41,407 bases of DNA from Clostridiaceae bacterium (lineage in GTDB: Bacteria > Bacillota > Clostridia > DSM-8532): assembly GCA_012522505.1 (NCBI GenBank), contig JAAYKJ010000034.1, positions 1 through 41,407 of the forward strand, read 5' to 3'. Position 1 is the stretch's first letter, and each line of letters starts with the position of its first letter. Positions 3,001 to 26,946 of this stretch are shown here, in pieces. The notes below the pieces were generated by a model that worked only from the letters and a program-made list of their open reading frames with translations, was not told where the DNA came from and searched no databases. A program made the position numbers and the translations under genes.

Positions 3001-6000
3001 ATTTCATTGGGTTCAAGGCTCACTGCACCGGAGCTGTATTCTGTGACGTAAGCGACGAAGTTTCCGCTGGAATCGATAATTTCCACGGCCACCTCGTCGT
3101 TGGGAAGAATGTTCTGTGAAAATTGCAGTTCGATGATGCTGTTAATGGGTACTGTGCGGTTCGTTCCCTTATTTCTTGGAGATACGCCTGTGAAGCTTAG
3201 TGCATTTGCCCCGGTGGTAAAGGAGATCACCTGATCCTGGAGCATGGTAAGACCGCCATTGTTTTGAACAGCATTATAGGGAACTGTCAGGATATACCCT
3301 GTATTCGGGCTCAATGGCACAAGAGGTTCTACCGACAGGATGTTTCCGCTGATTTGCAGAATGGCTCCTATATTCCGGCCTGTTTCGTCTGTCAGCCTTA
3401 TCTTGCCCTTGCCTGCCTTCACAGGTTCAGAGAAAGTCACCTGCAGATACTGGCTGATATCAATATCCTTCTGCCCGTCGGCAGGATAGATTCCCGTGAC
3501 CTCTGGCCTGCTGCTGCCGCCTTCTGTCAAAAACAGGATGGTTTTCGCAGGGCTGCGGTTTTGGAATCTGTCTCTGACGACACCCTCGGGTATGGTTAAT
3601 ACGTATGCGGTGCCCGGAAGCAGCGTTCCGGATTCAGGACGAATCGTCAGCGTATCTCCGCTTAACGCGGCGGAGACAGCAACCTTGTTTCCATCACGAA
3701 CCTGGAGGGAAATTGCGTCAAAGCTGCCGCCCTCGAGCAATTGATCCCTGTTAAAAACAGTGGAATTGGCAAAACGGATCACGATGGCGGAATCCACCGG
3801 GAATCCCCGCTCAAGGTCCTCCGGGCTGGATGAAACAATGGAAATGTGGTTTGCAGGCTTGCTTTCCACGGTGAAGGTAAGGGTAAAGTCATCCTGCATT
3901 TTGTTCTTCGACAGGTCGGTTATGACACCTTTCTTAATCTTCACAGTATATTCACCCGGAGCCATATCCTCTGAAAGGCTTATAATCAATTTGTTTTCGC
4001 TGATCCATCCGCTCATCTGCGGGATGGAGGGACCATCGAAGGTAATCCCAAAGCCATTTATCGGATACCGGTATGAGGGTAACAAGTTCGGTTGGGTTAT
4101 ATTTTCATTGAAGGTAAAGGTGATCTCACGGGTGTCCCATGAAACATCCGATTCACCGTTTCCGGGGCTTGTGGCATTAATAACGGGCGGTTTTGTATCG
4201 GGCAGCGCCAGAACAACAAAATCCAGCACGACGGTCTGGGATGCCCCGCCTTTTTGAAGGGTTGCCGTCAGAAGAACCTGCTGGTGCCCCACTTCGTTGG
4301 CAGACCGGGTGACACGCCCTGTATTGGAAATGACATCAGGCTTGTTGGAGGACCATGTAATGGTAGACCCTTCCGCCCCTGCGGTTGGCAGTACCAGATC
4401 GGTTGTTACTGAATATGGCGAATCGTTGATGCCAAGAATGGAATCAAGTAATACCGCCGCATCGGCTGCGACGGCCTCGGCTTCGGTTTGGGGCAGTCTC
4501 GGAACCGTCAAAACCAACACCTTTGTATCGAGTGTCGAATTGTACTGAATCGTCGCAGTAAGCCTGACGGTTTTGGTTCCCTTTGTATAGGACGGACGGG
4601 TAACCGTTCCATCAATGGCCACAACTGCTTCATCAGAGGATGCCCATTGGATGACAGTATTCATGGGGCCCGAATCCGGCAGGCTGAGAGGACCGACAAT
4701 AAAGTCCGCGCTGGTGTTTCCGTTTATTATTTGGCTTAAATCAAGCCAGGCCATATCCAGAGCTACCCGCTCCTCATCGGTGACCGGCAGTTTTTTCACG
4801 GTAACGGTGAAGGTCTTTTCCTCCTGGACATTGCCATAGCGGAGGACTGCGGTCAGCACCACTTCTTTGTCACCCTGTGTATAGGCAGGCCGCGTCACGG
4901 TACCGTCCCCTGCAACAAAGGCGGTGTCAGAGGATGTCCATGTGATTTCCGAGTCGTAGAGCCTTGTGGTGGAGAGCCTGAGATCCCTGGTTACATCTGA
5001 AAGGGATGTGTTATAATCGGCTCCCCCATTTAATATCCATTCTTCGGTCAAAGCGTCTTTGTCCTCTTGCACCCGGTCTTCATCCAATACCTTTACCCAT
5101 ACGGTAAAAGTGATTGAATCCTGGGCAGTGCCTTTTTTGATGACAGCCGTAAGGGTAACCTGCTGGTTCCCCTGGGCCGGGTGAGGGGTATGTACGGTGC
5201 CGTCGGTTTTCACAAAATTTGTGTCGGAGGAGGACCAGATGATGTCACATCCGTTCTGCCCTTTAGCAGGCATAAAGAGGTCTTTGGTTACGGCGACTGC
5301 CGAGCTGTTTTTATCCAGAAAACGCGCTTCGGTCAACCAGGCTTTATCATAAGCGACAGTATCGATGTCGGCAACCGACAGAGCGATCTTCAGAGAAGCA
5401 TACGCTCCCCCCTTTGCCAGAGCCTTTACGGTTGCTTCACCGCTTTGTGTAGCTGACAGGATTGTCGAAACCTTCCCGAAGGAATCGGTGACACCGGTGG
5501 TGGTACTCAATGAGCCGAAGCTGGTGGAAAAATCAACCTCCAGGCCTGGCACCAGATCGTCGCCGCCCTGAACAACTGCAGTAACCGTGCTTGAAGGCTG
5601 ACCTCCCGTCGGGTCGGCCGTCAGCGTGATATCCGATGCATCTAAAAAGATGTATGGGGCAAAATCAACCGGAACCGGATCGTCCTTGTAATACCAGCCC
5701 CAAATTCTTGATTTATCCTGGTCATCGGAATTACTGGCGTTGCTGATATCGGAAGAGCCTGTAAAGCCGACGTAGACCTGGCGAAGCTCCTCCATGCTGA
5801 GACTGTCGTCTCCGTTCCTCAGGATTTCTTCCAGATCAAAATCGTTCAGGCTGATGTCCGCTTGCTTTGGTCTGTCTGCACTTTCGCTTGTGCGTACCTC
5901 AAGCCTTTTTGCAGTACCGTCATATTCCACCCAGACGTTATAGACAGCGCGGGGGTCGGTAATCAAGCCCTCTTCTCTGCCATTCTCATACGTTGCGTCT

Positions 6001-7568
6001 TCATCTTCGTTATATATAACCTTGATTGCTCTGCCGACAGAGAAGCTCGGTGCCTGACCGCCGCCTTGACCCCCTCCTGATACATATTCGCTGTCAATAG
6101 CGATGGTCAGGTTTGGCATGATGTCCGCAAGCTTTGAAGCCTCTTTGTTGGTTCGCTGCAGCGTAAAGGTGAACCGGCTTTTCCCGTTCGAATATTCTTT
6201 AGGATCGATGGCAATGGTGAAGGCTGTGCTGAAGGACAGATCCTCGCCGAGGTTCAGCCTGTTTTTTGTAAATGCGCTGCTTTGCGTCTCAGAAGCATTC
6301 CCGGTAAGCTGCAGCGCTTTGATGTTGTTGTCGTACCGATCCTTCGCATCAATGATGGAGGAGGCACCGTTCAACTGAAGCCTGTCGGCTCCTGATGTGA
6401 AGTCATCATATTTCAGTCCCAAAGGAAAGACTTCCTTTGGAGTAACGATAAAGCTAAAGGTTTTCATCGCCTCAGCATGACCATAGGACAGGTTTGCCGT
6501 AAGGGTTACCAGTACGCTTTCCTGACCTGGTTCGGGACGGTTCACCTTTCCGGACGGCGCCACCACATCAGTGCGTGTACTGCTCCACACTATCGCGATC
6601 CGATGTGTACGATCATCCGGCCTTTCAACTCTCACAAGCTCTTCAGCGGGCAGATTCAGATCCAGTTTCACGTCGTCCGCCTGGTTTCCATCGAGCACAT
6701 ATTCCGGTGTCAGCCTGGCTTTCACGATCCCTACAAGCTCCTCATCATTTGGCTCCATCGCGATGATTGTAAAATAAAATTCCTTTTTCAAGGTTGCCAG
6801 GCCTTTGGTAAAGGTTGCGGTAACAACAACCTCCCTGTCCGGAGAACCAAACGGGGGCCGGATAACAGTACCGTCAGGCTTTACGACCGATTCATCGGAG
6901 GAATGCCATGTGATGGTGCTGCCATTATCTCCGATGGCTGGAAATTCCAAGTCCCTGTAGACGTTGAAAGCATAATCTCCTTTGGTGACATCGGTATCTA
7001 CCAGATCATTATAATCGGCTTCCACATCCAGCTCGTCCGCTGTCGGATCTAATGCTGTCACTGTGATGATAAAAGCTTTTTCGGAACTTGCGCTGCCTTT
7101 CGTAAGCTGTGCCGTCAGGATAGCAGTACCCTCCCAGTTATACTTTTTACCCAGATAGGATGGCCGGGTTACTTCTCCATCATCGGAAACAACAGCCTCA
7201 TCATCGGATTCCCATTGAATTGCGCTCCCATACGGACCGGTTTCTGGCAGGCTAAGGTCTGTTATGATGTTGCTGATATAGATATCACTTCCGAATATAT
7301 CTTCACTTATGTCATCGTTATCACCCTTAAACCTTTCAGCGGTCAGCCACGCTAAGTCCATCTCAACGCACTGCTCATCAGAGTATACGGCTTCAGCGAC
7401 GGAAATGTTCCCCATGCTGAAGGCAGGACCGGTATCCGAAAGCCCGGTTAAGGCTTCTTCGGAGGACGCATCAGGTCTGATCCAAGTGGTAGGTTTGGGT
7501 ATGTACAGATTCGAGAAAAAAATGCAGACAAGGATGAAAGAACTGAGAAATTTTACAAGCCTTTTCAT
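1..7568 (-). CDS. Giant secreted multidomain surface protein, C-terminus beyond window
   Basis: The frame is open from ATG 7568 to the left edge, giving 2522 residues of an incomplete protein. The start has a strong Shine-Dalgarno (GGGGAGG, 7574-7580) and a hydrophobic signal peptide. Visible domains: three atrophied bacterial Ig-like repeats (about residues 50-376; signature I.W.S.D..VV...G.V.RP, then LTA), an L-type-lectin-like segment (about 378-640; VWVEYDGTAK, YVGFTGSSD), a Big_1/invasin-like domain (about 650-735), four more atrophied Ig repeats (about 735-1125), three SbsA/Big_5-type Ig domains (about 1127-1555), a PKD-like domain (YDWSFGDARIG, about 1560-1655), then beta-rich sequence. 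Its last part has repeats such as LWYSVWDGEDW that suggest a beta-propeller. The domains are binding or stalk modules, so adhesion, polysaccharide binding or S-layer function is inferred. No SLH module is visible; one may lie in the missing C-terminus. No catalytic motif was recognised. Confidence 0.85.
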   Translation of the reverse strand, partial: MKRLVKFLSSFILVCIFFSNLYIPKPTTWIRPDASSEEALTGLSDTGPAFSMGNISVAEAVYSDEQCVEMDLAWLTAERFKGDNDDISEDIFGSDIYISNIITDLSLPETGPYGSAIQWESDDEAVVSDDGEVTRPSYLGKKYNWEGTAILTAQLTKGSASSEKAFIITVTALDPTADELDVEADYNDLVDTDVTKGDYAFNVYRDLEFPAIGDNGSTITWHSSDESVVKPDGTVIRPPFGSPDREVVVTATFTKGLATLKKEFYFTIIAMEPNDEELVGIVKARLTPEYVLDGNQADDVKLDLNLPAEELVRVERPDDRTHRIAIVWSSTRTDVVAPSGKVNRPEPGQESVLVTLTANLSYGHAEAMKTFSFIVTPKEVFPLGLKYDDFTSGADRLQLNGASSIIDAKDRYDNNIKALQLTGNASETQSSAFTKNRLNLGEDLSFSTAFTIAIDPKEYSNGKSRFTFTLQRTNKEASKLADIMPNLTIAIDSEYVSGGGQGGGQAPSFSVGRAIKVIYNEDEDATYENGREEGLITDPRAVYNVWVEYDGTAKRLEVRTSESADRPKQADISLNDFDLEEILRNGDDSLSMEELRQVYVGFTGSSDISNASNSDDQDKSRIWGWYYKDDPVPVDFAPYIFLDASDITLTADPTGGQPSSTVTAVVQGGDDLVPGLEVDFSTSFGSLSTTTGVTDSFGKVSTILSATQSGEATVKALAKGGAYASLKIALSVADIDTVAYDKAWLTEARFLDKNSSAVAVTKDLFMPAKGQNGCDIIWSSSDTNFVKTDGTVHTPHPAQGNQQVTLTAVIKKGTAQDSITFTVWVKVLDEDRVQEDKDALTEEWILNGGADYNTSLSDVTRDLRLSTTRLYDSEITWTSSDTAFVAGDGTVTRPAYTQGDKEVVLTAVLRYGNVQEEKTFTVTVKKLPVTDEERVALDMAWLDLSQIINGNTSADFIVGPLSLPDSGPMNTVIQWASSDEAVVAIDGTVTRPSYTKGTKTVRLTATIQYNSTLDTKVLVLTVPRLPQTEAEAVAADAAVLLDSILGINDSPYSVTTDLVLPTAGAEGSTITWSSNKPDVISNTGRVTRSANEVGHQQVLLTATLQKGGASQTVVLDFVVLALPDTKPPVINATSPGNGESDVSWDTREITFTFNENITQPNLLPSYRYPINGFGITFDGPSIPQMSGWISENKLIISLSEDMAPGEYTVKIKKGVITDLSKNKMQDDFTLTFTVESKPANHISIVSSSPEDLERGFPVDSAIVIRFANSTVFNRDQLLEGGSFDAISLQVRDGNKVAVSAALSGDTLTIRPESGTLLPGTAYVLTIPEGVVRDRFQNRSPAKTILFLTEGGSSRPEVTGIYPADGQKDIDISQYLQVTFSEPVKAGKGKIRLTDETGRNIGAILQISGNILSVEPLVPLSPNTGYILTVPYNAVQNNGGLTMLQDQVISFTTGANALSFTGVSPRNKGTNRTVPINSIIELQFSQNILPNDEVAVEIIDSSGNFVAYVTEYSSGAVSLEPNEILRASETYTVTVKAGAFSDENGNVSDQLRFSFTTARPVDITSYGVKTFTVDPSATWITGAEVTFSAAELERAFKYYGRSLQSYDWSFGDARIGTGISCGHAYIGEGQYTATLTITDVYGFEYSFAKEIMIEDFESANVRIDVSPNYTIEFWHEDTYGQWNPGYQWYKVYLIYNNTYMTDETVRAYLYKNGRQVKYIGSAVTGKGNSSYYDPELGRTFSDRGLAMIQFNYKDPDLYGTYELVFEYGSGEAVKTTRVPVIIADDRSKQALYLRLLHKDTGEYVESPYGGYYFLVDGEQVFGELQEVYPGEYYYVLKDIPIGVHEVKLFQHNAFTLYSSEKKSIYHVSTDHPDILLVEDKVPVVKGIRSSLSDSNSRYPAVFFRGVETPPIRFEIDGDWDFLHEGYYEYMLTKTGVVKKTWNPWFDLVPGTLLPEEKLMVRMVTHGGRTSEWVDAKIETTPPPVLSTDLEFEFVNDNYLVKTPMNFANIVGGKIGSLSDMPLLSHAESFGLTGSNNMFVGKIKKTGGGRWYIDFQIDAEGSYTKTKKKPKMVVVGYQIDVGFKGNLKVFYNGGESWEVDRCTLLLWGDLRKTYEKGFEVPKINVGVKGSLYIGAYASIYMDIDKRPGAKREYSGILHFEPYVMGRIFAGLKWVSVEGTVDGRIPAEVHIPTGYVSVDPSLTAKITGTFATYSKTLFKETLSTHWDNGREKVQSVYGFADDTAWATLDTGNSGLTQLPRNYLNSPSKWYEGQNALLNSAGLPILADASARTMMLAAQANPFIEVRKENVYPYADVLLARNENNSWLIWTDDDVARNPVNRTSLQYSVYQGGQWIEPEKMDDDGTADFTPAVAAAGDGVLMAWQDINQEMAANAELGDVIVNAEISVTEKVQKPGETADVITLTNDDLFDHSPAIAASGDKALLVWTKSEGLSFTMGDDMDQYKATANSDSLWYSVWDGEDWSTAQALDSDMPYVVSTHLSFSGDEGLLVYTLDEDSNLETMEDT

Positions 7569-8039
7569 AACAACCTCCCCGGGAGCAAGCATGCCATACA
7601 TGCACTTGCAAGCTAGCATTCAAACACATCGAAAATTGGCTTTTTTATCTGCGCTTCAACGCAGTCCTTCTCATGAAAGCTGCCGCATGCTCCAGGCCTG
7701 TAGCTGCTTCGTATTGTTCTTACAATGTTAACAGAAACCAAATATTCAGCTAAACCCCCTATGAATCACTTCATAAGGAATAACAGAGAGTAAAAAAAGG
7801 CATTCAACGAAAGAAGATATACTGAAGTCTAACCCACGCAAATGCCTTTTCCATAACCCAAAAAATAGTAAATCACATAAAAAATTATACTGCCTGTAGG
7901 CGGTTTTTGTCAATAGATTTGTTTTCTTGTCACATTGCCTTTATGAACAGTTGTTGCAGTTCATAGCTTTTTGCGACGTCTCCCATGGTACCAGCGGTAT
8001 CACGGTTGGAAAGCGCATGTTTTTCTCTCACGATTCACT
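7569..8039. other. Intergenic region, leader of giant gene
   Basis: There is no convincing gene here. Next to the ribosome binding site of the giant minus-strand gene is a small hairpin (arms 7585-7593 and 7599-7609, one 2-nt bulge), which would form in that mRNA's leader. Farther out lies a perfect 10-bp inverted repeat (7795-7850). The short plus-strand frame that starts near 7927 runs into the repeat array at 8093 and has no ribosome binding site, so I do not call it. No clear -35/-10 pair could be assigned. Confidence 0.5.
7795..7850. repeat. Perfect 10-bp inverted repeat
   Basis: AAAAGGCATT (7795-7804) is mirrored by AATGCCTTTT (7841-7850) across a 36-nt loop. On either strand the outer arm ends in a T-run, so it could act as a weak bidirectional terminator between lemA and the giant gene, or be the ends of a tiny inserted element. 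The long loop makes a simple intrinsic terminator doubtful. Confidence 0.4.
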
Positions 8040-8663
8040 TCAAAGGTTCATTCTCCGGGGTTCGGACACAGCACGAGACTGTGTCAAGAACTCCGTCCCC
8101 TTGACACCCGTCCCCTTGACACCGTCCCCTTGACACTTTGACACACTATTTAAATAATCCCTTTTCTGTAAGCCCAATATTCCAGCAATCATGGAAGCAG
8201 GGAAAACTCTGGTTTCCCGGTTCAGTTTGGTCACATTGTTGTTGTATATCAAACAGCAGTTACGCACCATGTTTTCATAGATCTGCACCGCATTCATGGT
8301 TTTGATATACATTGGGCTTGCTTTTATTTCAGGATATTGTTCGGTGACCATGGCAATCATGGCCAATGCTTCAGTAATAATCTCTTCCTGACCCAAAATA
8401 TCATCTGATGTGGATTTAGCTGTAATCACGCTTCTTTTAGAATGAATTGTATCAATCAGCACTTCACATTCGTGCCTGGCGTACTCCTGAGTTAAATTCA
8501 ACAGAGCGGTTAATGCATCAAAACGGTTGGAAAGCTGCACTCCAATCTGGATCAATGCGTTGTTTACATTTTCATCCATACTCACCAGTCTGCGCTGAGC
8601 AGAGATCGCCCACAGAGCAACGATTATAATAATCACAAAGATTACAATTAAGGTTGGCATCAT
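8040..8663 (-). CDS. lemA: LemA family protein with repeat-derived C-terminal tail
   Basis: The protein has 207 residues from ATG 8663, which follows GAGGAG with good spacing; a second ATG follows directly. It has one N-terminal membrane segment (residues about 2-20) and then a mostly helical domain. Family marks are VDENVNNALIQI-like helix 1 (here MDENVNNALIQIG), NRFDALTALL, a YNNNVTKLNRETRVFP segment and an AGILGLQKRDYL end. LemA proteins are membrane-anchored, extracellularly oriented helical proteins of uncertain function. The normal C-terminus appears lost: after RDYL the frame runs into three tandem GTGTCAAGGGGACGG units (8093-8136) and reads VKGTGVKGTEFL plus unrelated sequence, so the last 30 or so residues are not native. 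The gene is second in a two-gene unit, 13 bases after a 45-residue secreted-peptide gene. Confidence 0.85.
   Translation of the reverse strand: MMPTLIVIFVIIIIVALWAISAQRRLVSMDENVNNALIQIGVQLSNRFDALTALLNLTQEYARHECEVLIDTIHSKRSVITAKSTSDDILGQEEIITEALAMIAMVTEQYPEIKASPMYIKTMNAVQIYENMVRNCCLIYNNNVTKLNRETRVFPASMIAGILGLQKRDYLNSVSKCQGDGVKGTGVKGTEFLTQSRAVSEPRRMNL
8093..8136. repeat. Three tandem CCGTCCCCTTGACAC units
   Basis: Units lie at 8093-8107, 8108-8122 and about 8123-8136 (period 15, 15, 14). The flanking GTGTCAAGAA at 8081 and TTTGACACAC at 8137 give inverted GTGTCA/TGACAC ends. Related GGGGACGG cores occur at 9084-9111 and 20655-20675, with weaker traces near 27950, 29410-29480 and 33295. This array overlaps the 3' end of lemA and supplies its odd C-terminal residues. 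It looks like a dispersed REP-like family; the mobilising enzyme is not in this window. Confidence 0.75.
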
Positions 8664-8676
8664 ATATTTCTCCTCA

Positions 8677-8814
8677 TTATGGACAGACAAACAGTCCTCC
8701 GCCGCCAAGATACACAAGCTCCTTCTCCGATGTATTTTCAGCAAATGCTGAAGCGGGTAGCAGACTTATCAACAGAATTGCTACTAAAAGTTGTAGAATT
8801 ATTTTATTATTCAT
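8677..8814 (-). CDS. Small secreted peptide (45 aa) upstream of lemA
   Basis: ATG 8814 follows a strong GAGGGGAG at correct spacing. The product starts MNNKIILQLLVAILLISLLP, has a typical Sec signal peptide with a likely cut after PASAFA (about residue 25), and leaves a mature peptide of about 20 residues that begins ENTSEKELVYLGGGG and ends in VCP. It stops at TAA 8679-8677, and the lemA ribosome binding site begins right after the stop, so the two genes are probably co-transcribed. No family was recognised. It could be a genuine small exported peptide or the stump of a longer exported protein truncated just after the signal peptide. The good translation signals and operon position favour expression. 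Confidence 0.55.
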   Translation of the reverse strand: MNNKIILQLLVAILLISLLPASAFAENTSEKELVYLGGGGLFVCP

Positions 8815-8851
8815 AATATACTCCCCTCGCAAAATAGTATTTCCGGAGCTT

Positions 8852-8897: not shown

Positions 8898-9058
8898 ACC
8901 TGTCATCCCTTCAACGTTCCCGCGTATAGAACCCTGCTTCATACCATTAAGTTAACAGATAAGCTTCTCCAAAAAACATCTCTCGCATGAAACATGCTTT
9001 TTTCGACATGAAATACTCTTCTTTACTGAAAAACCGCCACAGCGCTTTCTGCGAGCGG

Positions 9059-10068: not shown

Positions 10069-10544
10069 CACCACATTTAACCAAAAAATTTGTAGATCCC
10101 ATTTATCTGTAATTGTACATAGTACATACATGGAAGCAAAGAATTAATTACAACTGCGGCAGTCTTTGCGCCCCACTTCCTTATAGCGGTTTGCATTACC
10201 TTTCTTGACTTCCCGCTGCATATTATTCTATGTTCCCAGAACCATTTTACAATTGCCGAAACACCTCATTGATGGTCTGATTCATAAGTTAATCTATCTC
10301 AATTATATCTTTATAAGACTATTGAGTCAATTTTTACATTATTCTCTACAATCTTTTGATCCGCTATCATTACAAGTAAATCATACATATCACATTACAC
10401 GGCTTAGATTTATGAGGGTTTGAGAGGAACCACTCTGCCAAATCATATTTCAGTGAAACATCTGAAATGAATAGAGCCATTTGTTGAAGGCTGTATTTTT
10501 ATGTGTTAAAATAGTGTTGTTTCTTCTTAGGTTACGGAGGTAAA
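10069..10544. other. Intergenic region
   Basis: No gene is called. A 25-codon minus-strand frame (10144-10221) ending in KDCRSCN lacks a ribosome binding site. AT-rich sequence before 10536 probably contains the promoter of the decayed regulator that follows, whose GGAGG ribosome binding site is intact at 10536-10540. Confidence 0.4.
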
Positions 10545-10988
10545 ATGATGCTTAGAATTACGATTTGTGACGATGATATCAGAGACCTTTCCCAAATTAC
10601 AAATCTGATAAACAAGTATCAGAATAAGAAAAAAATTCCCTTAAGTATGAAACCTTTCAAACGTTATAGACCTTTTAGAAAGCATACGCAGATATACCTA
10701 TCTGCTGGATATATCTAAGCCTGGATTGAATGGAATACGGGCAGCCTATGAAATTCGTTCGTTTGATAATGAAATAAAATTATTTTTTTAGCTTTCTATC
10801 CAGAGATTGGAGTAGAAAGCTATGCTGTTGGAGCGTATTACTATCTCATAAAACCGTGTAAAGAAGAGAAGCCTTCCCCTATATTGGATAAATTCTTCAT
10901 TGACGCGCAAAAAACAGGGGAAGCTCTGCATATTAAACCATTTTCCGGAGTTACGCATATTTCGCTTGACAGACTGGAATTTTTATAG
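10545..10988 (+). pseudogene. Decayed AgrA/LytTR-type response regulator
   Basis: ATG 10545 follows a perfect GGAGG. The first frame reads MMLRITICDDDIRDLSQITN, a normal receiver start with acidic residues after beta-1. A frameshift near 10660 is needed to continue with NVIDLLESIRRYTYLLDIS and KPGLNGIRAAYEIRSFDNEI, which holds the phospho-acceptor region. A second frameshift or stop near 10788 precedes PEIGVESYAVGAYYYLIKP, the typical switch and conserved K-P end. Another stop at 10986 cuts it within what should be the DNA-binding domain (HISLDRLEFL). AgrA-type regulators usually pair with a histidine kinase in quorum or peptide sensing; no intact partner is next to it. It is unlikely to be functional. 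Confidence 0.75.
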
Positions 10989-11022
10989 ATTATGAATAAA
11001 TAAATGAAAGCAGGATATTTTA

Positions 11023-11727
11023 ATGGCTCACGAAAAGATACTTATTATTGACGATGAAGTTGAGATATGTGAACTCATTTCTATGTACCTGAAGAAAAAT
11101 GAATTTGTACCCATTACAGCAAACACCGGCAGTGATGCTTTGAATCTAACCAGATTACATAATCCTGATCTAATCATATTGGATATACTCCTTCCTGATA
11201 TAGATGGTCTAGAATTATGTCAGGACCTACGCAAAATTACCAAATGCCATATAATTTTTTTAAGCGCAAAAGGCAGCGATATGGATAAGATACTCGGCCT
11301 CACCGTTGGCGGCGATGATTATATCACCAAACCATTTAGCCCCAGTGTATTGGTTGCCCGTGTAAAAGCTCATCTGCGCAGATTGCGTTTATCGAAACCG
11401 CAAACAGATACTGAAAATACTGTCATAAGTTTTCCGGGTATTAAAATAGATCTATCATCACATAGTACTTACATTGACAACAACCCTGTAGCACTTTCGC
11501 AAAAAGAATTTGATATATTATCGCTTATGGCCCAGAACCCAAACAAAGTATTCAACCTCGGACAATTATACGATTATGTCTGGGGTGCTGATAACATCGG
11601 TGATACAAGAACTGTAATGGTACATATAAGCAATCTGCGAAAAAAGATCGAAAAGGATCCTGCAAACCCAAAAATAATTGTCAATATAAAGGGCGTTGGG
11701 TATAAATTCGATGCTGCAAATTTGTAG
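11023..11727 (+). CDS. OmpR/PhoB-family response regulator
   Basis: The product has 234 residues, the usual length for the family; the start has AGGA upstream. The receiver domain (about 1-120) has acidic pocket D10-D11, phospho-acceptor D54 in LIILDILLPD, the conserved S81 in FLSAK and K103 in YITKPF. The C-terminal winged helix (about 137-234) has LSQKEFDILSLMAQNPNKVF, a VWGADNIGDTRTVMVHISNL recognition region and the terminal VNIKGVGYKFD wing. It is expected to bind direct-repeat DNA as a phosphorylated dimer. The histidine kinase gene follows after 50 bp on the same strand, so the two form a two-component system. A plausible target is the tandem direct repeat at 20441-20462, upstream of the large SLH gene. 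Confidence 0.95.
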   Translation: MAHEKILIIDDEVEICELISMYLKKNEFVPITANTGSDALNLTRLHNPDLIILDILLPDIDGLELCQDLRKITKCHIIFLSAKGSDMDKILGLTVGGDDYITKPFSPSVLVARVKAHLRRLRLSKPQTDTENTVISFPGIKIDLSSHSTYIDNNPVALSQKEFDILSLMAQNPNKVFNLGQLYDYVWGADNIGDTRTVMVHISNLRKKIEKDPANPKIIVNIKGVGYKFDAANL

Positions 11728-11777
11728 CGTTCTTGCTATATCAGTACGGTTAGGAACGAAGAAGTGAGGATAAAGCT

Positions 11778-13892
11778 TTGAGTTTGAGGAACATCTTTAA
11801 GGTAACAGCTATCGTTATCGGTCTTATCGCGTTGTTTTCGGGTTGTGAAACAAGCTTCGCAGAAAACACAATGCCTCCAAAAGCCTTAAGCGGGATATTG
11901 GACTTAAGAAATTGGGATTTTGAAAAGGACGGTACCATAAAGCTCGATGGCGAATGGGACTTTTATTGGAATAAGCTTTTAAATTTTTCTGAATTTGAAT
12001 CCGGATCACCCGTAAAGACTGGAAGCATTATTGTTCCCGGCTCATGGAACAAATATGAAACTGCTGAAATATCTTCAGGGAAAGGATTCGCAACCTATAA
12101 ACTTGTTATACTTGTAAATGAAGCTGAGCAAACTCTGGCATTAAAACTGCCAAGGATTTTCACAGCATATTCAATATGGGCGGACGGCAAACCTTTGACC
12201 ACGGGCGGCAAAGTTGCCACTTCAAAAAGTGATGCGATACCCCAATATTATCCAAAAGTCGTAACCTATATGCCTCAAAATGACCGCATTGAGCTTATCG
12301 TTCAGGTTTCGAACTTTTCGCACAGAAGCGGCGGCATATTGGAAAGCATAAAGCTTGGAACCGAGATGCAAATCATTACATCCCGTGAAAACAGGCTTGC
12401 TTTAGAGCTTTTCTTATTCGGAGCTCTATTCGTAATGGGCATCTACCATGTTTTCCTTTTTATTTTCAGAAAGAAGAATGTTTCCCCACTATATTTCGGT
12501 ATTTTCTGCATACTCATTGCCATACGCACCCTATTCGTGGGAGAAATTTATATTATACAGCTTTTCCCTGATTTCAACTGGGAGATACAGCATAAAATTC
12601 AGACTATGACATATTACATTGGAGTTCCTGTTTTCACTACTTTTGTTAAATCAATTTTTCCTAATGAGTTTCCTATAAAAGCACTTAGATTTTCACAATT
12701 GGCAGGTTGCTTGTTTAGTTTACTTGTACTTGTTACACCTGCAAGAATTTTTACTGTATTTAACCCTCTTTATCAGGTTATAACCGTATTATCTGTGATA
12801 TTTATAATATATACTTTTATACTTGCTTGTATCAGAAAACGTCAGGGTGCTCTTCTCTTTTCGTTAAGCGGTGTTTTTTTTGTTCTGACATCCATTAATG
12901 ACTTATTGTTTTTAAGTGTACCCTTCAATGACTATAATATCCCATTTCTTCGTCATATTATTGTAACAGGTAACCTTTCATCATTTGGGCTTATTGTTCT
13001 TGTTATCTCACAGTCTGTAGTACTTGCCATAAATCTTTCAAAAGCCTTTTCACAGGTAGAGGTTATGACAGATGAGTTAATGATAGCAAATAATCAGAAA
13101 AGCGAGCTCTTATTAACACTTGAAGATAAGGTTAAGGAACGAACGAATGAGCTTGAGAGTTCAAACAAAGAACTCGAAAAAGCATACAAGAGCCTGTCTC
13201 AGCTTGAAAAAGCCAGAAGAAATTTATTTGCAAATATTTCTCATGACCTGAAAACCCCAATGACCCTGATTCAGGGATATACAGAGGCAATTCTTGATGA
13301 TATGATTACAGAAGATGAGCAGAAAAGAAAGTATCTGAAACTAATACATAGCAAAATAGTAAATCTATCAAATCTGACCAATGATGTATTTGAGCTTTCC
13401 CAGCTGGAATCCCGGGATATTAGGCTGGAACCGGAGCCAGTAAACATGAAAAAAATAAAAGAAAAACTGGATAACAAATACAGGCATGATATTGAAAGCG
13501 CCGGTTTGAACTTCTTGATCGAAATATTAAATCAAGACGAGTATATAAGCTTAGATATCAATCGGATAGAAAGAGTTTTCTCTAATCTTATTTATAATGC
13601 TATTAAGCATACCAGCAGAGGGAAAATTACCGTTTCAGGAAGCTTGACGGATGAATACGCACAGTTTTGTGTTTCAGATACCGGTAGCGGTATATCTCCG
13701 GATGATCTACCGCACATTTTTGACCGTTTTTATACCGGGTCAAAGTCAAGAAATTCTGTAAAGGAAGGCCGCGGCCTCGGTCTTGCAATAGCAAAGGAAA
13801 TTGTAGAATACCATGGTGGTACCATATGCGCAAAAAGCAGCATAAATGAAGGTACAAGCTTTATATTCACAATAAAACGGAACCTGCCCTAA
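11778..13892 (+). CDS. 7TMR-DISM sensor histidine kinase
   Basis: The product has 704 residues from a TTG start (11778), chosen because GAGGA sits 7 bases upstream and no ATG start fits. Order: a signal peptide with a weak lipobox-like LFSGC (C23); an extracellular jelly-roll domain of the 7TMR-DISMED2 type (about 35-190; LDGEWDFYW, VPGSWNKY); seven membrane segments of the 7TMR-DISM_7TM family (about 205-425); a coiled coil (about 430-475); HisKA with H489 in NISHDLKTPM; and HATPase_c with NLIYNAIKHT (N box), DTGSGI (G1) and GRGLGLAIAKEIV (G2). It senses an external ligand, perhaps carbohydrate-like given the jelly-roll fold (family inference), and phosphorylates the upstream regulator. It converges on the 2069-residue SLH gene and shares its terminator. 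Confidence 0.93.
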   Translation: MSLRNIFKVTAIVIGLIALFSGCETSFAENTMPPKALSGILDLRNWDFEKDGTIKLDGEWDFYWNKLLNFSEFESGSPVKTGSIIVPGSWNKYETAEISSGKGFATYKLVILVNEAEQTLALKLPRIFTAYSIWADGKPLTTGGKVATSKSDAIPQYYPKVVTYMPQNDRIELIVQVSNFSHRSGGILESIKLGTEMQIITSRENRLALELFLFGALFVMGIYHVFLFIFRKKNVSPLYFGIFCILIAIRTLFVGEIYIIQLFPDFNWEIQHKIQTMTYYIGVPVFTTFVKSIFPNEFPIKALRFSQLAGCLFSLLVLVTPARIFTVFNPLYQVITVLSVIFIIYTFILACIRKRQGALLFSLSGVFFVLTSINDLLFLSVPFNDYNIPFLRHIIVTGNLSSFGLIVLVISQSVVLAINLSKAFSQVEVMTDELMIANNQKSELLLTLEDKVKERTNELESSNKELEKAYKSLSQLEKARRNLFANISHDLKTPMTLIQGYTEAILDDMITEDEQKRKYLKLIHSKIVNLSNLTNDVFELSQLESRDIRLEPEPVNMKKIKEKLDNKYRHDIESAGLNFLIEILNQDEYISLDINRIERVFSNLIYNAIKHTSRGKITVSGSLTDEYAQFCVSDTGSGISPDDLPHIFDRFYTGSKSRNSVKEGRGLGLAIAKEIVEYHGGTICAKSSINEGTSFIFTIKRNLP

Positions 13893-14054: not shown

Positions 14055-17000
14055 TTAGGGGGCAATATCTATAAACCTGACATTTCCGTATACAGTGTTT
14101 TCCTGGGAATTGTTGTAAAAACCAAATTTGCCGTCTTTGAAATCGCCATTTGCATTAAAGATCTCATTACTATGAATCCATACTGTTATATTGTTCTTTG
14201 TGTAACGTACCTGAAATTCGTACTCAGTATAATCTTCCCATCCCTTACCAGAACCATGTTTTGTACCAAGTATCTCGCATTTATTGGTTTCAGGCAGATG
14301 GAACCACAGATATTTTGAAAATTCTCCTAAACCTCCATGGTATGATGGTTGTGTTTTAAGTTCAGCAGTTATTCTCAAAAGTGTATAGCCTGCAGCTGCT
14401 TTTTTGTCGATATTCTCATCATACCAGTCATTCCTATCTCTTTGCTCTTTTTGTTTCCAATCAAATACAATAAAATCGTAATACTCAATATCGTCATTAT
14501 TCTCATCTGTTGGCTGCTGATAACCCAATACAAAGCCAAATAAGTCATCATCACTTTCTTGTTCAACCTTCATGGCTCCGGTTATCTCTTTATTAATACA
14601 ATTATCAGGGCTTACAAAAAAGCTTATGTATTTATTATCAGTTATTCTGACAGACTTGGCGCCGTTTTCTAAAGTCCATTTAGCAGTATGGCCATTTACG
14701 TCCCAGTCTTTCAAGTCGGCTACCCAACTTGCATAAAACGTGATGTTGCCGATGGAGCCTTTTGTGATCTTATTTACTTTGTTGCCACCGGTCTCAGAGT
14801 CGACCCATCCATCGAATATATAACCGGTCCTGGTAGCATCTGCCAGTGTAATGGTTTCAGATTCAATTGTGTAACTTGCCGGGTTACTTTCCGGGTTTTC
14901 ACCACCATCCAGATGATAGGTAATACTATAGGTGATCAGATTCCATTCTGCTTTATAGGTTGTATCTGCTGCGGGCATTGTGGGTGGCAATTCCGGCTTC
15001 CAACCACTGAAATTATAACCAATCCTCTCCACGACAGGGGCAGAAATAGCCTTGCCGTATACAACATCCGTCACTGTGTTTTGACCACCATTTTCAGGCA
15101 TGAAGACCAGTTTGTAGCTGTTTCGTGTGTAATAATATTCAATGACAGTACTCCCGTCGGCAGCTATGCTTTTTGTCTGTGTTTGCGGTGCAGTGAAACC
15201 TTCATAATTCTTTACACCTGGTGTAATGCTTGAATCTGTTGCACCAGTGAAATTCTCTGTTAAAACCAGAGTATAGTTGTTATTCAGATCTTCCAAATAA
15301 TGTTTCACGGTATATGGGGTGTTTCCTTCGGCTACCCAAACCGCTGTATAGGTTGTGTCGCCTGCAGGCATTTTTCCTGTAGGTTCAGGAGCCCATTCTT
15401 TAAAATTGTATCCGTCCTTAACCAAGCCGGTAGGCAGGGTTACTTCGTCATCATACTTAACAGTTTTAGTCAGATCCGTAAGGCCATTTTCATGCTTAAT
15501 CGTCAAGGTATAGCTATTACGGGGATAATAGTAATTAACAACAGTACTTCCACTACCATCAATCGTTACAATCTGTTTATTTGGTGAGGTAAAGCCGGCA
15601 TAATTCTTAACTTCCGGTGTTACTTCGATTCCTGCAGTACCTTTCAGTTTGTCGGTGTCAACCAAAACATAGGAACTGGCAGTGCCAAGAGAAACTTTCT
15701 TACCAAAAATTATTACATATTTTTCCTCTTCAAGACTCCTTTGATAATGGTTAACTGTATACGGTGTATCAGGCTTTCCTGCCCACTTGGCATACAAAAT
15801 CTGTGATGATGTAATGTTAACGGTAGTGTCTGCTTTTATTTGAGTTCCGAAGCCAACATTATCCACCTCGCTTGTATACCAACCAAGGAAAGTATAGCCC
15901 TGTCTTTCAGGGGTAGGCAGTGTACCATATTTACTTCCATATGTTACGGGAATGCTTGCCGGGTTAGTGCCTCCATTGGAATCAAAGGAGACCGTATAGG
16001 TATTTTTATTCCATTTTGCTGTATATTCTAAATTATTCCCAGGCATGGTTGTTGCAACTGTTTTGTCCCATCCGGCAAAAGTGTGCCCCGTCTTTGACAG
16101 TGCCGGCGGTTTAATGGTTGACCCGAATTTATAGGTTTGAACTATGCTGTTCCCATCCTTTTCCGACTTGAATGTTACTTCGTAACTGTCACGGTTATAT
16201 TTATATTCGACAACGGCGCTACCGTCCGGGGCAATAGTCACAGTCTTCTTGTCAGGAGAAGTGAAGCCTGTATAAGTCTTTACTGCCGGTGAAACATCAG
16301 TATCAGTGGTACCGGTTAGGTTCTGGGTCTCTTTCAGCGTGTATTTGTTACTGTTGGTGATGTCTTGCTGATAATGCTCCACCCTATATTTTGTGTTTGT
16401 GTTCGGAGTCCATTTCGCATAAAGCTTTATGTCGTTCCATCCCATTGTTGAGAACGTATAAGCTTGTTTCAATGCTGTATCGGAATACCACCCTGCAAAA
16501 GTGTATCCGGCTCTGGTGGGGTTTTTCGGAGCTGTTACTTTTTCATTGTACTTCTTTGTAATGCTATTGACAGTGCTACCACCATTGCTATCAAAAGAGA
16601 TTGTATAACCGTCTTTCAGGTCAGACCAAATTAACTTATATGTGCGCGAAATAGGAACGGACGAAAATGCAAGGGCTCCTTGCTTCCATATTATGGTCAT
16701 TTCCGCTTCAAGATATTTTGTATCTTCTGGAACATTTGCTGTTATTTTGCCATTTTTGAGAGTAAACTTTTTATCTGAGAGCTTAACCTCATAATCTCCG
16801 ATTTTATATGCCTTTGTAGAGTTTTCTCCCTCTCTGAGATCTAAATAAATCATGCTAAAAGCATCATTAGGGATGGCGCATGTCTTATTCTTGCTGCTAA
16901 ATACAATATCCCCGGCATCCTCGTAAGCAAAATCATAAACATAATATCTTGTTCCTGCTGTATGTATAAGCCATTCCTTCCCTATCAAATCTTTGCTGGA

Positions 17001-20000
17001 CTTAAACTTTCCCTTGACTGCCTGAAAAACTAAAGCCATATCGAAATATGAACCCAGCTCATAATAGAGTGCTCCGGATTTGGATGTATTATTGTTATTT
17101 TTATGTAGCTTTTCATAGAAGAAAAACCCGTATGCATTCATGTAAATTCCTGCTTCGGCTTCTAATCCAAGGCTGGCAACATCTTTAATAACGAGACTTA
17201 CTGTTAATTCAGGCTTGATTCCCGCCCGCAACCCAAGTCTTCCCATGACATAAAATTGGAAAGAGTACTCCTTCTTCATAAGATCAACAGAGCTGGCACC
17301 TGATTCTTCATCTAAAAGATAAGCCCAAAAGCTATATCTTGTAGCTTCCTTTGATTCATAATTACAGCCTATCGCAACATTGATATCGCCGGATACAACA
17401 AAGCTTACCACAAATTTTATTTGTATAGCCCCTTTTAGTAAGGTATAAGTTTTTTCAATAATCTCCTTGCTGAATATCTCAATAAAATCACTCTCGTTTT
17501 CCATCATATCGGTATATAATTGATAGAGATCCTGGACACCGGCAGTAATTTCATCTTCGCCTTTTTTATCTTTACCAAGTAAATCCTTGATCTTAGCAAC
17601 GATATCGATTGAGTTGACGTCGCCCTTTGTGTATACTAAAGCTTTAAAGCTGACGGCAGTGTAGCTATGGATGTCTATATCGGCCTTAAAAAAGACATCG
17701 GTCGGGATAACTTTCCACTTCCATTTAATCCAGGCATCATCTTTCATAGAAACCTTTACTTCTTCAATAAAATCTCCGGTTAGTTCAATATTAATAACAC
17801 TATCGTCATCAGTTTTAATTTCAATTGTTACAGAAAGTGAAACAACACATCTTACTCCCTCGTTAAAATTTTTAGGGCTTTTGTTTATTGATGCCTTCAC
17901 CTTGGGGCTTTTAATTTTTACTTTACTACTGCTTGCCATTAAGCGAAAATTACTTGGGCTCATATGGGAGCCATCATCCATAGTAATTCTAAGAGAATCC
18001 ATCCCTCCGTACGCATCTGCAATCTGTTGAAAGTCATCTGATGCAAGCGCCAAAGTAGTTAAATACGTGGCTGCCTTATCAACAAATCCGCTTGACATAA
18101 CCTGCTCTTCTATTTGTAATTCATATTCTTCAATTTTATCGTCATCAATTAGTTGGTCACCGATTAACTCCATTTCCGAATGATAGTTAAAGGAATCATA
18201 CATTTCTTCCAAGGTGATTAATTCAAATTGAACACTTACAGTAGTTCCGCTTTTTGCTGCCTCCGTTACCTTAGCATAGAGAATATCCTCGGTGGGCATG
18301 TCTTCATCAGTCATGTTTTCATTAAATATTTTCTCAAATTGTACAGTACTAAGTAACAGGAAATCACCTTTGTTAATTGTAGTTTCAGCACTAAGCCCGA
18401 TATCATCAAACTCTTTAAAATTGAGACTATATAATGAGGCCGTAAAGGAGCCGGTTTCGGTTTCCTCGTTAATGTCAAAGTTTGTAAGGGAATGTCCATT
18501 CCCAATATAGATTGGAAGTGATTTAGGTATAACAAGGATATCTTCCGCACTGGCACCGATATAGGAAACTGTCCTTCCGTCAATTTCTGTTACAGTTACA
18601 TAAGAGATTTTATCGTTTACAAGAATTTTACTATCTTTGTTTTGAACCTGACCAGGATTAACTCCACTATATATGCAAAGAGTATCCCCAATATCAAAGG
18701 GTAATGGTTCAGAACCGGTATATCTAAAACTGCCGATATCAGAATGGTTCGTTTCATTTCCTTCCTCAGACATTGTTATCAGAGGTACAGACAAATATGT
18801 TATATCGTTATTGTTTTGAACAATATCTTCTATATGACTATCGGGAATGTACACAATATCAGAATTAAACTCAATATTATATACTTCATCCTTTTTTATA
18901 GTAAAGGAACATATGCGAACATAATCCTCCTGATCGGCAAATGTAAGCCTTTCATCATCTAATAAGAGTTTATAGGATGCTCCCTCAATAAATCCATCGG
19001 TACCTTTAAGAGTGAATACCCCATTGCCGCCGGCAATTGTTAATACCGATGAATCTGAGCCGGTATTATCTTCAATACTGATACCGTTTTCCACATCAGT
19101 TACTGTCATGTTTTGATTTGATGCTTCTATGATAATCGTTAGATCCGGGTTCTGATCAATTAGCGCGAAAGAGTTATCCAGCTTTTCTTCGGCTATTTCC
19201 TCAACAATTAAATATTTAGCATATAGAGTTATATTTGAAGTTACAACACTGCCTTTTGTGAACTCATTCTCGTATAAACCCTCATCCTGATACCATCCGA
19301 GGAAGATTGCATTTTCTTTTATAGGGACAGGAAGGCTTGATATGGTATGACCACTTCTAACTCTTATTGGGTCTACTGTTGCCCCACCGTTGGAGTTAAA
19401 TGAAACAGTATAGTATGTATAATTCCTATCTGAATCAGATGGCGGGGTTGATGTAGGCACTGGAGTCTGAGTTGGTGTCGGAGATGGAGATAGTGATGGC
19501 AGTGGAGTAGGTGATGCTGTTGGTGTGAGTGATGGCGTGGGTGTCTGAGAGGAAAGAGCATTGTCTTCATGCCATTTTGTCACACCTTGATGGATTCTTG
19601 TACAAAACGTAGCAGCCGATGCTCTTTCAGCATTATCTTTAGGATTAAAGAATCCATTGTTATCACCCTTAAGAAATCCTGCTTTCCATAATTTCATTAC
19701 CGAATCAAGCGCCCACGGAGCAATATCAGAAATATCTGCAGGAGATTCAAAGTTATTGGAATCAGCACGATAATCTATGTCATAGGCGTCAAAAAAACGA
19801 ACTGCGAATACAGCCATTTGCTCACGGGTAACGATTCCATCCGGATCGAAGCGATTGTTTCCAACACCCGTTGTTACCCCTTTTTCAAGAGCCCATGTAA
19901 TGTAGGGGGCATAATATGCATTCTCATCTACGTCAATAAATGCAGTGCTTGTTGTATAGTCTTTCTGATTGATTCCGGCAATTCGTCCCAGCACGGTTAC

Positions 20001-20264
20001 AAACATGGAACGTGACATGGTTTCGTACGGTGAGAAAGAATCATCTCCCGTTCCGTTAAAAATTCCATTCTCAAATACATAAAGAATGGAATCATAGAAC
20101 CAATCCGATTCAGATATATCTTTAAATGGACTTGCTTTTTGAGATGTAGCTTCTGCGACTGTGGGATGTATTACCATATCCTGTACTTCTGCCAACGCAT
20201 TGACAGGAATCATAGTAATAACCATGCAGATCAAAAGAATTGTACTTAATAATCGCTTCATCAT
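14055..20264 (-). CDS. 2069-aa SLH-anchored surface protein with Flg_new and MucBP-like repeats
   Basis: The start has GGGGGGG upstream. A signal peptide (residues 1-26, cut near NALAE) is followed by three SLH motifs (about 47-88, 108-152, 173-215), which anchor proteins to secondary cell-wall polymer, and a Pro/Thr/Ser linker (241-278). An Flg_new/InlB-type repeat follows (about 285-351; VSFNSNGGATV ... FLGWYQD). A core of about 860 residues (about 352-1215) has no recognised family but is clearly paralogous to the gene at the right edge (shared QFYVMG.LGL, RYSFW and VYDFAYE motifs). Six more Flg_new repeats alternate with three MucBP-like units (about 1219-1847). The last 220 residues (FGFVLGYQ, VFDWKQKEQ, TVYGNVRF) resemble the thrombospondin C-terminal lectin-like domain. 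A role as an adhesin or S-layer-associated protein is inferred. No catalytic motif was seen. Confidence 0.9.
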   Translation of the reverse strand: MMKRLLSTILLICMVITMIPVNALAEVQDMVIHPTVAEATSQKASPFKDISESDWFYDSILYVFENGIFNGTGDDSFSPYETMSRSMFVTVLGRIAGINQKDYTTSTAFIDVDENAYYAPYITWALEKGVTTGVGNNRFDPDGIVTREQMAVFAVRFFDAYDIDYRADSNNFESPADISDIAPWALDSVMKLWKAGFLKGDNNGFFNPKDNAERASAATFCTRIHQGVTKWHEDNALSSQTPTPSLTPTASPTPLPSLSPSPTPTQTPVPTSTPPSDSDRNYTYYTVSFNSNGGATVDPIRVRSGHTISSLPVPIKENAIFLGWYQDEGLYENEFTKGSVVTSNITLYAKYLIVEEIAEEKLDNSFALIDQNPDLTIIIEASNQNMTVTDVENGISIEDNTGSDSSVLTIAGGNGVFTLKGTDGFIEGASYKLLLDDERLTFADQEDYVRICSFTIKKDEVYNIEFNSDIVYIPDSHIEDIVQNNNDITYLSVPLITMSEEGNETNHSDIGSFRYTGSEPLPFDIGDTLCIYSGVNPGQVQNKDSKILVNDKISYVTVTEIDGRTVSYIGASAEDILVIPKSLPIYIGNGHSLTNFDINEETETGSFTASLYSLNFKEFDDIGLSAETTINKGDFLLLSTVQFEKIFNENMTDEDMPTEDILYAKVTEAAKSGTTVSVQFELITLEEMYDSFNYHSEMELIGDQLIDDDKIEEYELQIEEQVMSSGFVDKAATYLTTLALASDDFQQIADAYGGMDSLRITMDDGSHMSPSNFRLMASSSKVKIKSPKVKASINKSPKNFNEGVRCVVSLSVTIEIKTDDDSVINIELTGDFIEEVKVSMKDDAWIKWKWKVIPTDVFFKADIDIHSYTAVSFKALVYTKGDVNSIDIVAKIKDLLGKDKKGEDEITAGVQDLYQLYTDMMENESDFIEIFSKEIIEKTYTLLKGAIQIKFVVSFVVSGDINVAIGCNYESKEATRYSFWAYLLDEESGASSVDLMKKEYSFQFYVMGRLGLRAGIKPELTVSLVIKDVASLGLEAEAGIYMNAYGFFFYEKLHKNNNNTSKSGALYYELGSYFDMALVFQAVKGKFKSSKDLIGKEWLIHTAGTRYYVYDFAYEDAGDIVFSSKNKTCAIPNDAFSMIYLDLREGENSTKAYKIGDYEVKLSDKKFTLKNGKITANVPEDTKYLEAEMTIIWKQGALAFSSVPISRTYKLIWSDLKDGYTISFDSNGGSTVNSITKKYNEKVTAPKNPTRAGYTFAGWYSDTALKQAYTFSTMGWNDIKLYAKWTPNTNTKYRVEHYQQDITNSNKYTLKETQNLTGTTDTDVSPAVKTYTGFTSPDKKTVTIAPDGSAVVEYKYNRDSYEVTFKSEKDGNSIVQTYKFGSTIKPPALSKTGHTFAGWDKTVATTMPGNNLEYTAKWNKNTYTVSFDSNGGTNPASIPVTYGSKYGTLPTPERQGYTFLGWYTSEVDNVGFGTQIKADTTVNITSSQILYAKWAGKPDTPYTVNHYQRSLEEEKYVIIFGKKVSLGTASSYVLVDTDKLKGTAGIEVTPEVKNYAGFTSPNKQIVTIDGSGSTVVNYYYPRNSYTLTIKHENGLTDLTKTVKYDDEVTLPTGLVKDGYNFKEWAPEPTGKMPAGDTTYTAVWVAEGNTPYTVKHYLEDLNNNYTLVLTENFTGATDSSITPGVKNYEGFTAPQTQTKSIAADGSTVIEYYYTRNSYKLVFMPENGGQNTVTDVVYGKAISAPVVERIGYNFSGWKPELPPTMPAADTTYKAEWNLITYSITYHLDGGENPESNPASYTIESETITLADATRTGYIFDGWVDSETGGNKVNKITKGSIGNITFYASWVADLKDWDVNGHTAKWTLENGAKSVRITDNKYISFFVSPDNCINKEITGAMKVEQESDDDLFGFVLGYQQPTDENNDDIEYYDFIVFDWKQKEQRDRNDWYDENIDKKAAAGYTLLRITAELKTQPSYHGGLGEFSKYLWFHLPETNKCEILGTKHGSGKGWEDYTEYEFQVRYTKNNITVWIHSNEIFNANGDFKDGKFGFYNNSQENTVYGNVRFIDIAP

Positions 20265-23014: not shown

Positions 23015-23027
23015 AGTTCAATCTCCT

Positions 23028-26170: not shown

Positions 26171-26946
26171 GGCTCCACCCCCCCGTAAATATTGCAGCCA
26201 CTAAAGATCTCTATCATCTCATGGCGCAGCGCGTTTGTAATATCCAAACGGATTTTCGGCGGAATTTCATAAACATCAGAGTTAAAGAGATAGTTTTGAA
26301 GTACGGGGTCTTTGATGAGGAGCTTTGTGTGAAAAATATTGGAATGATAAACGTTGACATCTACAGCATCGTACTTTTTCAAAATGTCACTGTTTATATA
26401 GTTTTGAATAGAGGCAACGGGCTGGTCGATAAACAGTTTTTCACCCTTCATATTGCGGGTAAACCCCCGCACGCGATAATCTATGGTAATAATATCCGAA
26501 TCAAAGCTACCGATTAAAAAATCCAGCGTTGACAGAGGTGTGATTTCACCGCAGGTGGCGACGTCAATGTCCACGCGAAAGGTGGCAATAGAGGTTTCGG
26601 GGTGATATTCCGGGTATGTATGCACCGTTACATGGCTTTTATCCAAATGTGCTACAATAGTTTCTCCGCTTCGGTTTTTTACCATGCTTTCTTCTGCAAT
26701 CAAGAAAGTGACGCTGGCACCCTGGGGCTCGTAGTCCTGCTTTGAGATGTTTAGCACAGTCGCTCCAATCATCTCGGTGAGCTTTGTTAAAATAACGGTC
26801 AGACGCTCCGAGTTGTATTGCTCATTGATATATTTGATATAGTCCTGCTGTTCCCGGGCTGTTTTGGCATAGCAAATATCATAGATATTAAAACTAAGTG
26901 ATTTGGTGAGGTTATTAAACCCGTATAACTTCATTTTTTCTTCCAT
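26167..26946 (-). CDS. speD: S-adenosylmethionine decarboxylase proenzyme
   Basis: The 259-residue product matches the longer Escherichia coli-type SpeD rather than the short Thermotoga/Bacillus type. The self-cleavage site is K103-S104 in [14 protein letters not shown]104 would become the pyruvoyl group. Other marks are [20 protein letters not shown] and [14 protein letters not shown]. It makes decarboxylated S-adenosylmethionine for SpeE. The start at 26946 is supported by GGAGGG five bases upstream. It is the first gene of the operon, with a hairpin (26962-26994) and a palindrome (26998-27015) just upstream. Confidence 0.95.

Follow-up and report, generated by a model that had tools for sequence, protein, structure and literature searches.

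We analysed a 41,407-nucleotide contig of a Clostridiaceae bacterium (JAAYKJ010000034.1 of assembly GCA_012522505.1), hereafter the window, in which two giant surface proteins, P0001 and P0002, share a core that matched no family in the libraries searched. Judging from sequence, this core of about 870-920 residues is a new extracellular protein family, composite in build and carried on giant secreted, wall-anchored clostridial proteins. In addition, the gene of the giant protein often forms part of a conserved cassette of regulatory and protease genes, which the first-pass annotation of the window had overlooked. In the reading that we prefer, and to which we give a probability of about 0.5, the core protein would be a signal-controlled, wall-anchored display or adhesion platform that is switched by a GHKL/LytTR system and trimmed by its own subtilase. 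A large extracellular module that lies outside the searched libraries and occurs in several clostridial families, often with its own sensor, regulator and protease, represents an unstudied surface system; the named species that carry it make the system testable, and the tandem box found in front of several of its operons is a direct handle on the signal to which it responds.

The core shared by P0001 and P0002

14055..20264 (-): P0001, giant SLH protein of 2069 residues, consisting of a signal peptide, three SLH domains, a Pro/Thr linker, an Flg_new repeat, the core, six Flg_new repeats and a TSP_C-like domain
19572..20132 (-): SLH anchor of P0001, residues 45-231
16614..19211 (-): core of P0001, residues 352-1217, located by sequence alignment
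14076..14687 (-): TSP_C-like C-terminal domain of P0001, residues 1860-2063 (Pfam PF05735, 42 bits, cut-off 25.6)
36271..41406 (-): P0002, right-edge protein, the 5' end of which is missing at the contig end
38419..41172 (-): core of P0002, residues 79-996, located by sequence alignment and AlphaFold

The first-pass annotation had claimed that the two proteins share an unrecognised core, with co-linear motifs and with Flg_new repeats on its flanks, and our comparisons bear this out. Residues 277-1216 of P0001 aligned with residues 3-995 of P0002 at 29% identity (BLASTP, 382 bits, E 1e-111), and the motifs are co-linear in this alignment. The flanks of P0001 matched Flg_new with 280 bits and SLH with 90.3 bits, and those of P0002 matched Flg_new with 156 bits, each above the curated Pfam score; the N-terminal Flg_new repeat also lies inside the stretch common to both proteins. 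What had been said of the C-terminal modules, a thrombospondin-C-like domain in P0001 and MBG plus PLAT in P0002, stood only in part: the TSP_C domain passed its cut-off, the PLAT match of P0002 (17.4 bits) fell under the curated cut-off of 23, with a close relative at locus L031 passing at 30.2 bits, and the family scan of P0002 reported no MBG model.

We found a third full copy in the same genome, on contig C209, where a protein of 2742 residues shows the order SLH, repeat, core and repeats seen in P0001. The absent start of P0002 probably corresponds to C76:2950-3740, since contig C76 of the same genome encodes an SLH domain, followed at the contig end by a Lys/Pro/Glu-rich linker, and among the SLH regions compared the nearest to this domain is that of L031, whose core is in turn the nearest relative of the P0002 core (65%).

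Known families and extent of the family

The core gave no significant match to Pfam-A 2025, NCBIfam 20 or PHROGs 4, apart from isolated chance-level matches in one or two members, and a sequence-profile search of the PDB returned nothing convincing; the best match, to the ATP synthase delta subunit, had an E value of 0.017, and the matches were mostly helical. These searches agree with the earlier impression that the core belongs to no known family. A library of anti-phage defence models had no match to the core, and the S8 protein of the cassette matched its subtilase-containing models only as a protease. A search of the literature, covering open-licence papers, found no description of the core or of the gene set.

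Starting from a three-row alignment, we scanned 84,980 species genomes once, by means of two short peptide patterns. The scan gave 34 loci, a minimum because it relied on these two patterns, and 30 of them hold a core of more than 700 residues, near end to end and in one frame. The core was found in Lachnospiraceae, Oscillospiraceae, Acetivibrio, Ruminiclostridium and many further Clostridia, plus one metagenome-assembled genome of Paenibacillaceae, and the core-bearing Clostridia come from gut, rumen, soil and digester. Named carriers are Ruminiclostridium papyrosolvens, Acetivibrio mesophilus and A. straminisolvens, the last with a frame broken in its draft. In a second collection, the core was present in 17 of 391 genomes of the class, and among 398 genomes drawn from the phylum it was present in four, which include the window's own genome and two single-contig chromosomes. 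Presence is patchy within the window's own family as well (3/32 genomes). An alignment of 32 cores contained 22 invariant columns, among them YVMG of the FYVMG motif, on a background identity of 26-34%.

Genes adjoining the core genes

Neighbours were found by clustering all open reading frames (ORFs) of the fetched loci, with Pfam being used for domains. A GHKL histidine kinase is present in 14 of the 23 loci with more than 3 kb of upstream sequence, in 12 of them as a divergent kinase/LytTR-regulator pair just upstream of the core operon; the regulator count, likewise 14, takes in L033 and L055, where response regulators lie on the strand of the giant gene and may be of a different type. The stretch between the kinase/regulator pair and the giant gene often holds a gene for a LemA-family protein, a short membrane protein or a lipoprotein. 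Directly downstream of the giant gene, an S8 subtilase is encoded in 11 of the 23 loci that extend far enough (in L040 it is upstream), and the Asp, His and Ser motifs are intact in 14 of 14 S8 proteins, some of which carry SLH domains and others a lipobox. L107, which is the same contig as L043, was left out of the count, and G139 and G263 appear to be the genomes from which L026 and L037 come.

The arrangement was also seen in the single-contig chromosomes G162, G244 and G534. Specifically, G162 and G244 have the divergent kinase/regulator pair plus a downstream S8 gene, and in G534, from outside the class, the upstream pair is on the strand of the core gene and S8 is again downstream. In G184 the pair lies downstream of the core gene, and G361 and G377 have neither the pair nor S8 beside it. 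Each of five core-bearing genomes contained only 3-6 S8 genes and 7-23 GHKL matches; one of the former and one of the latter always adjoin the core gene.

In the window's genome only the C209 copy keeps an intact kinase-regulator-LemA set; a search of this genome found no S8 gene, and contig C221, which bears a close paralogue of the regulator, shows no cassette around that gene. A putative IS30-type transposase gene, recognised by eye (L009 13521-14198 (-)), overlaps the end of the C209 giant gene, and such an element may have removed the downstream part of the C209 cassette.

A tandem LytTR-type box

The intergenic regions shared by the kinase/regulator genes and the core operon contain direct repeats in tandem, the period of which is 21 or 22 bp. 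By resampling, the repeats were significant in L009, L037, L038, L042, L043, L051, L110 and the C76 region. In L029, L031, L039, L041 and L046 they were weak or unclear, and the pattern-defined boxes of L026 and L027 were missed by this procedure. About 10 loci clearly combine a LytTR regulator gene with a tandem repeat of about 21-22 bp period in the shared promoter region. The commonest form of the box, WTTCATGYNRAAAAAANNATGWTTCATGC, was matched 13 times at ≤5 mismatches across the 603 kb of loci, whereas the reversed pattern had no match, and 7 of the 13 fall in loci that were not used to write the pattern.

Within the window's own genome four sites were found at ≤3 mismatches, with 0 in the reversed control. 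Three of them are upstream of giant surface genes, namely before the SLH gene of C76, before the C209 copy, and before the genes for a LemA protein and for P0003, the giant protein at the left edge of the window. The fourth, on C268 (L101 4420-5659 (+)), precedes a frame-broken gene, the open part of which looks like a secreted CAP-type protein. The site in the window is the following.

8985..9013 (-): tandem LytTR-type box TTTCATGTCGAAAAAAGCATGTTTCATGC, upstream of LemA and P0003 (0 expected in shuffles)

Since the genes of P0003, C76/P0002 and C209 stand behind the same box, the proteins look like one small regulon, with P0001 outside it. LytTR sites in general have two repeats of 9-11 nt, 11-13 nt apart, and the LytTR regulator YpdB binds a direct repeat of GGCATTTCAT (PMC4847170). 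The box resembles this experimentally known YpdB site, in which GGCATTTCAT is repeated (PMC4847170), and the neighbouring regulator would be the protein that binds it.

The genes for the kinase, the regulator, the giant protein and the secreted S8 protease lie side by side, and the box is in a single intergenic region that kinase and regulator have in common with the target operon, an arrangement that would also suit a proteolytic signal relay. In such a relay, the S8 protease would cut the giant protein when the latter meets its target, and the freed fragment would feed back on the GHKL kinase by activating it. However, neither a conserved peptide nor a conserved cleavage site was identified. 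One half of the loci have no S8 gene, and none was found in the window's genome, where the C209 copy retains both kinase and regulator. We regard this explanation as quite improbable.

Anchors and C-terminal modules

Most complete members carry SLH domains as wall anchor, and several have none. In L034 and L035 sortase-like tails replace SLH, a similar tail is found in L039, and downstream of the giant gene of L024 an overlapping frame encodes an LPETG tail. In the family scan of 30 C-terminal parts, Flg_new was found in 29/30, GLUG in 6, cohesin in 4, PLAT in 2 and TSP_C in 1. The first-pass annotation had pictured exchangeable C-terminal modules over a constant core, which is correct as anatomy, as shown by the module tables of the 30 members; the anchors, which it overlooked, are exchangeable as well.

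Just upstream of SLH-less core genes lie genes for cohesin-like secreted proteins (L032 2-946, L041 8091-9422 and L047 8096-9409), perhaps anchoring or partner proteins. The cohesin of the L041 neighbour was confirmed by Pfam with 61 bits; those of L032 and L047 were read by eye.

The SLH anchor, the repeats and the high beta content are typical of wall proteins, and some members end in repeats only, features that would also be expected of a plain structural S-layer-type or stalk protein, the core being only a spacer or lattice part with no exposed binding role. Against this, the patchy presence of the core (17/391 genomes) and the frequent linked regulator do not fit a constitutive S-layer, and 22 invariant columns on a background of 26-34% identity suggest more than a spacer. 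A purely structural role is unlikely in our opinion.

Predicted structure of the core

18162..18749 (-): two tandem small beta modules of P0001, residues 506-591 and 623-701, with the pattern GD.L.IY ... V.V..ID (hhalign)
16917..17924 (-): long-strand module of P0001, residues 781-1116, which holds FYVMG and VYDFAYE (AlphaFold, alternation test)

AlphaFold modelled the P0001 core with a mean predicted local distance difference test score (pLDDT) of 76.9 and a predicted template modelling score (pTM) of 0.66, and the P0002 core with values of 76.8 and 0.60 and the same layout. The two modelled paralogues are 31% identical, and the models share alignment rows (32 sequences), hence they are not independent. 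The predicted order is an Ig-like start, two small beta modules, helices of partly low confidence, the long-strand module and a C-terminal beta domain of about 100 residues. The small beta modules represent a tandem duplication (hhalign profile-profile comparison, probability 95.5%, E 1.5e-8). In the long-strand module, most strands are predicted to be 25-37 residues long in both models (25-36 in P0001) and are mostly amphipathic, FYVMG lies within one strand, and helices are inserted between the long strands in both models. Five of the strands longer than 20 residues show a strong two-residue alternation of hydrophobic and polar positions across the family (permutation p ≤0.005), giving them a hydrophobic face along the whole strand length. 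The very long strands predicted in both paralogues favour the large beta structure, not just separate Ig domains, that had been anticipated in the first-pass annotation.

We considered whether the core may be a string of ordinary Ig-like domains that are not recognised at the sequence level. The first 100 or so residues look Ig-like, with a weak Big_5 match in P0002, and the last 100 or so gave a weak cadherin-like match in the PDB profile search. However, AlphaFold predicts a continuous module with strands of mostly 25-37 residues, inserted helices and a separate, duplicated small beta module, which leaves such a string very improbable; we rejected a repeated array of ordinary Ig domains of about 90 residues on the strand lengths and the inserted helices of both models.

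A different use of the same strands would be a hydrophobic-ligand device, in which the amphipathic strands would make up a half-open tube or gutter for carrying lipid or another hydrophobic molecule through the thick wall, with the rest of the protein positioning it. The five long strands with strong two-residue alternation and a full-length hydrophobic face are in keeping with this, and at 25-37 residues the strands are longer than a plain membrane barrel allows, which is what an elongated groove would predict. The strands could, however, simply pack face to face as a long sandwich, and no lipid-related neighbour genes were seen at the loci, so that we hold the device to be unlikely. A bolder version, in which the long-strand module would be a new fold, that is, an amphipathic beta tube or gutter on single-membrane bacteria that moves or holds a hydrophobic ligand across the wall and has its own quorum-type switch and maturation protease, appears to us more unlikely still.

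Proposed function

Starting from the homology, architecture, gene order and box described above, we infer kinase input, binding of the box by the regulator, processing and adhesion or binding by the display platform along the following lines. An extracellular cue, possibly a peptide, would be read by the AgrC-like GHKL kinase, whose LytTR partner would bind the tandem box with its period of 21-22 bp and switch on the divergent operon of a LemA-like or lipoprotein gene, the giant protein and the S8 subtilase. The giant protein would be exported and fixed to the wall by its SLH domains or, in some lineages, by a sortase-type tail. The long-strand beta core, presumed to be stiff, would then stand clear of the wall and present the variable C-terminal modules, such as the lectin-like TSP_C, PLAT, cohesin, GLUG and InlB-type repeats, to substrates, neighbours or host; finally, the subtilase, being SLH-anchored, a lipoprotein or free, would trim or shed the giant protein.

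Several observations weigh against such a platform. Among the loci with enough flanking sequence, more than one third have no kinase gene and half have no S8 gene, and 8 changes of the cassette label were counted on the tree of the cores; the cassette is therefore not obligatory, and its association with the core would have been lost or gained repeatedly, or may be hidden by contig ends. P0001 itself has no box of this type within 3 mismatches, and several loci show only Flg_new repeats in the C-terminal part, with no recognisable head. In addition, the structural part of the argument draws on moderate AlphaFold confidence (pTM 0.60-0.66), 32 sequences and two models on a shared alignment.

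Comparison with known systems

The SLH modular surface proteins with Flg_new or InlB B-type repeats (PF00395, PF09479) have the same SLH anchor, linker, repeats and large secreted build, whereas the proteins described here add a core of about 870-920 residues that belongs to no searched family and, in some lineages, alternate sortase-like tails with SLH. Cellulosome anchoring scaffoldins, with SLH and cohesins, share the wall-anchored display build, and 4 of 30 core proteins have a cohesin after the core; however, cohesin is absent in most core proteins, none of those described here has a scaffoldin-type cohesin array, and the core is unrelated by sequence. P0001 and P0002 gave no cohesin match, and thus do not combine an anchor with several cohesins as a scaffoldin does.

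The agr-, virRS- and YpdAB-like GHKL/LytTR systems have the same kinase, regulator and tandem box of 21-22 bp period, but no agrB- or agrD-type genes were noticed, and the core cassette adds a LemA-like protein, the giant protein and the S8 protease. As for surface proteins that are processed by a subtilase encoded next door, the likeness is a secreted S8 protein with intact motifs beside the giant gene. The differences are that processing is our proposal in the present case and that the protease of the core cassette is itself SLH- or lipobox-anchored in many loci.

The left-edge protein and other features of the window

3..7619 (-): P0003, left-edge giant protein, not a core homologue by sequence (BLASTP, profile comparison)
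8043..8744 (-): LemA-family protein upstream of P0003, of the same family as the cassette LemA (Pfam LemA E 1.2e-24, clustering)
10539..11003 (+): decayed LytTR response regulator of the cassette type, with 7 in-frame stops
11023..13892 (+): response regulator and 7TMR-DISM histidine kinase, convergent with P0001

A faint echo of the core had also been reported for P0003, and this did not hold. BLASTP of P0003 against the core gave no significant match, profile-profile comparison of four of its relatives with the core, both local and global, gave a probability of <1%, and the FEPYVMG motif is not kept in the protein's own relatives (L104-L106). P0003 has a family of its own (L103-L106; window 810-1667 (-)), made up of very large proteins in which a PKD-like domain and an amphipathic beta region precede the repeat region; three of the relatives are open frames of about 3,500 residues. 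Between the box and LemA, at about 8680-8815 (-), a short ORF appears to encode a signal peptide and about 20 residues ending in GGGGLFVCP; it could be a remnant or a peptide gene.

The decayed regulator at 10539-11003 has 28% identity to the intact C209 regulator, with no kinase left beside it. Relatives of the response regulator and 7TMR-DISM kinase next to P0001 adjoin the core genes of L022 and L055, and the L022 core is 72% identical to that of P0001; since this system accompanies P0001-like cores, the P0001-like branch may have a different sensor.

Among the fetched loci, a tyrosyl-tRNA synthetase gene in L056 (926-2193 (+)) is split into two overlapping frames, indicating a frameshift or an assembly error. 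Directly upstream of P0001 and on the same strand, the window contains a polyamine gene cluster (20682-26946 (-)) that encodes a decarboxylase-type protein, a saccharopine-dehydrogenase-like protein (carboxynorspermidine-type), an arginase-family protein, an Orn/Lys/Arg decarboxylase and an AdoMet decarboxylase.

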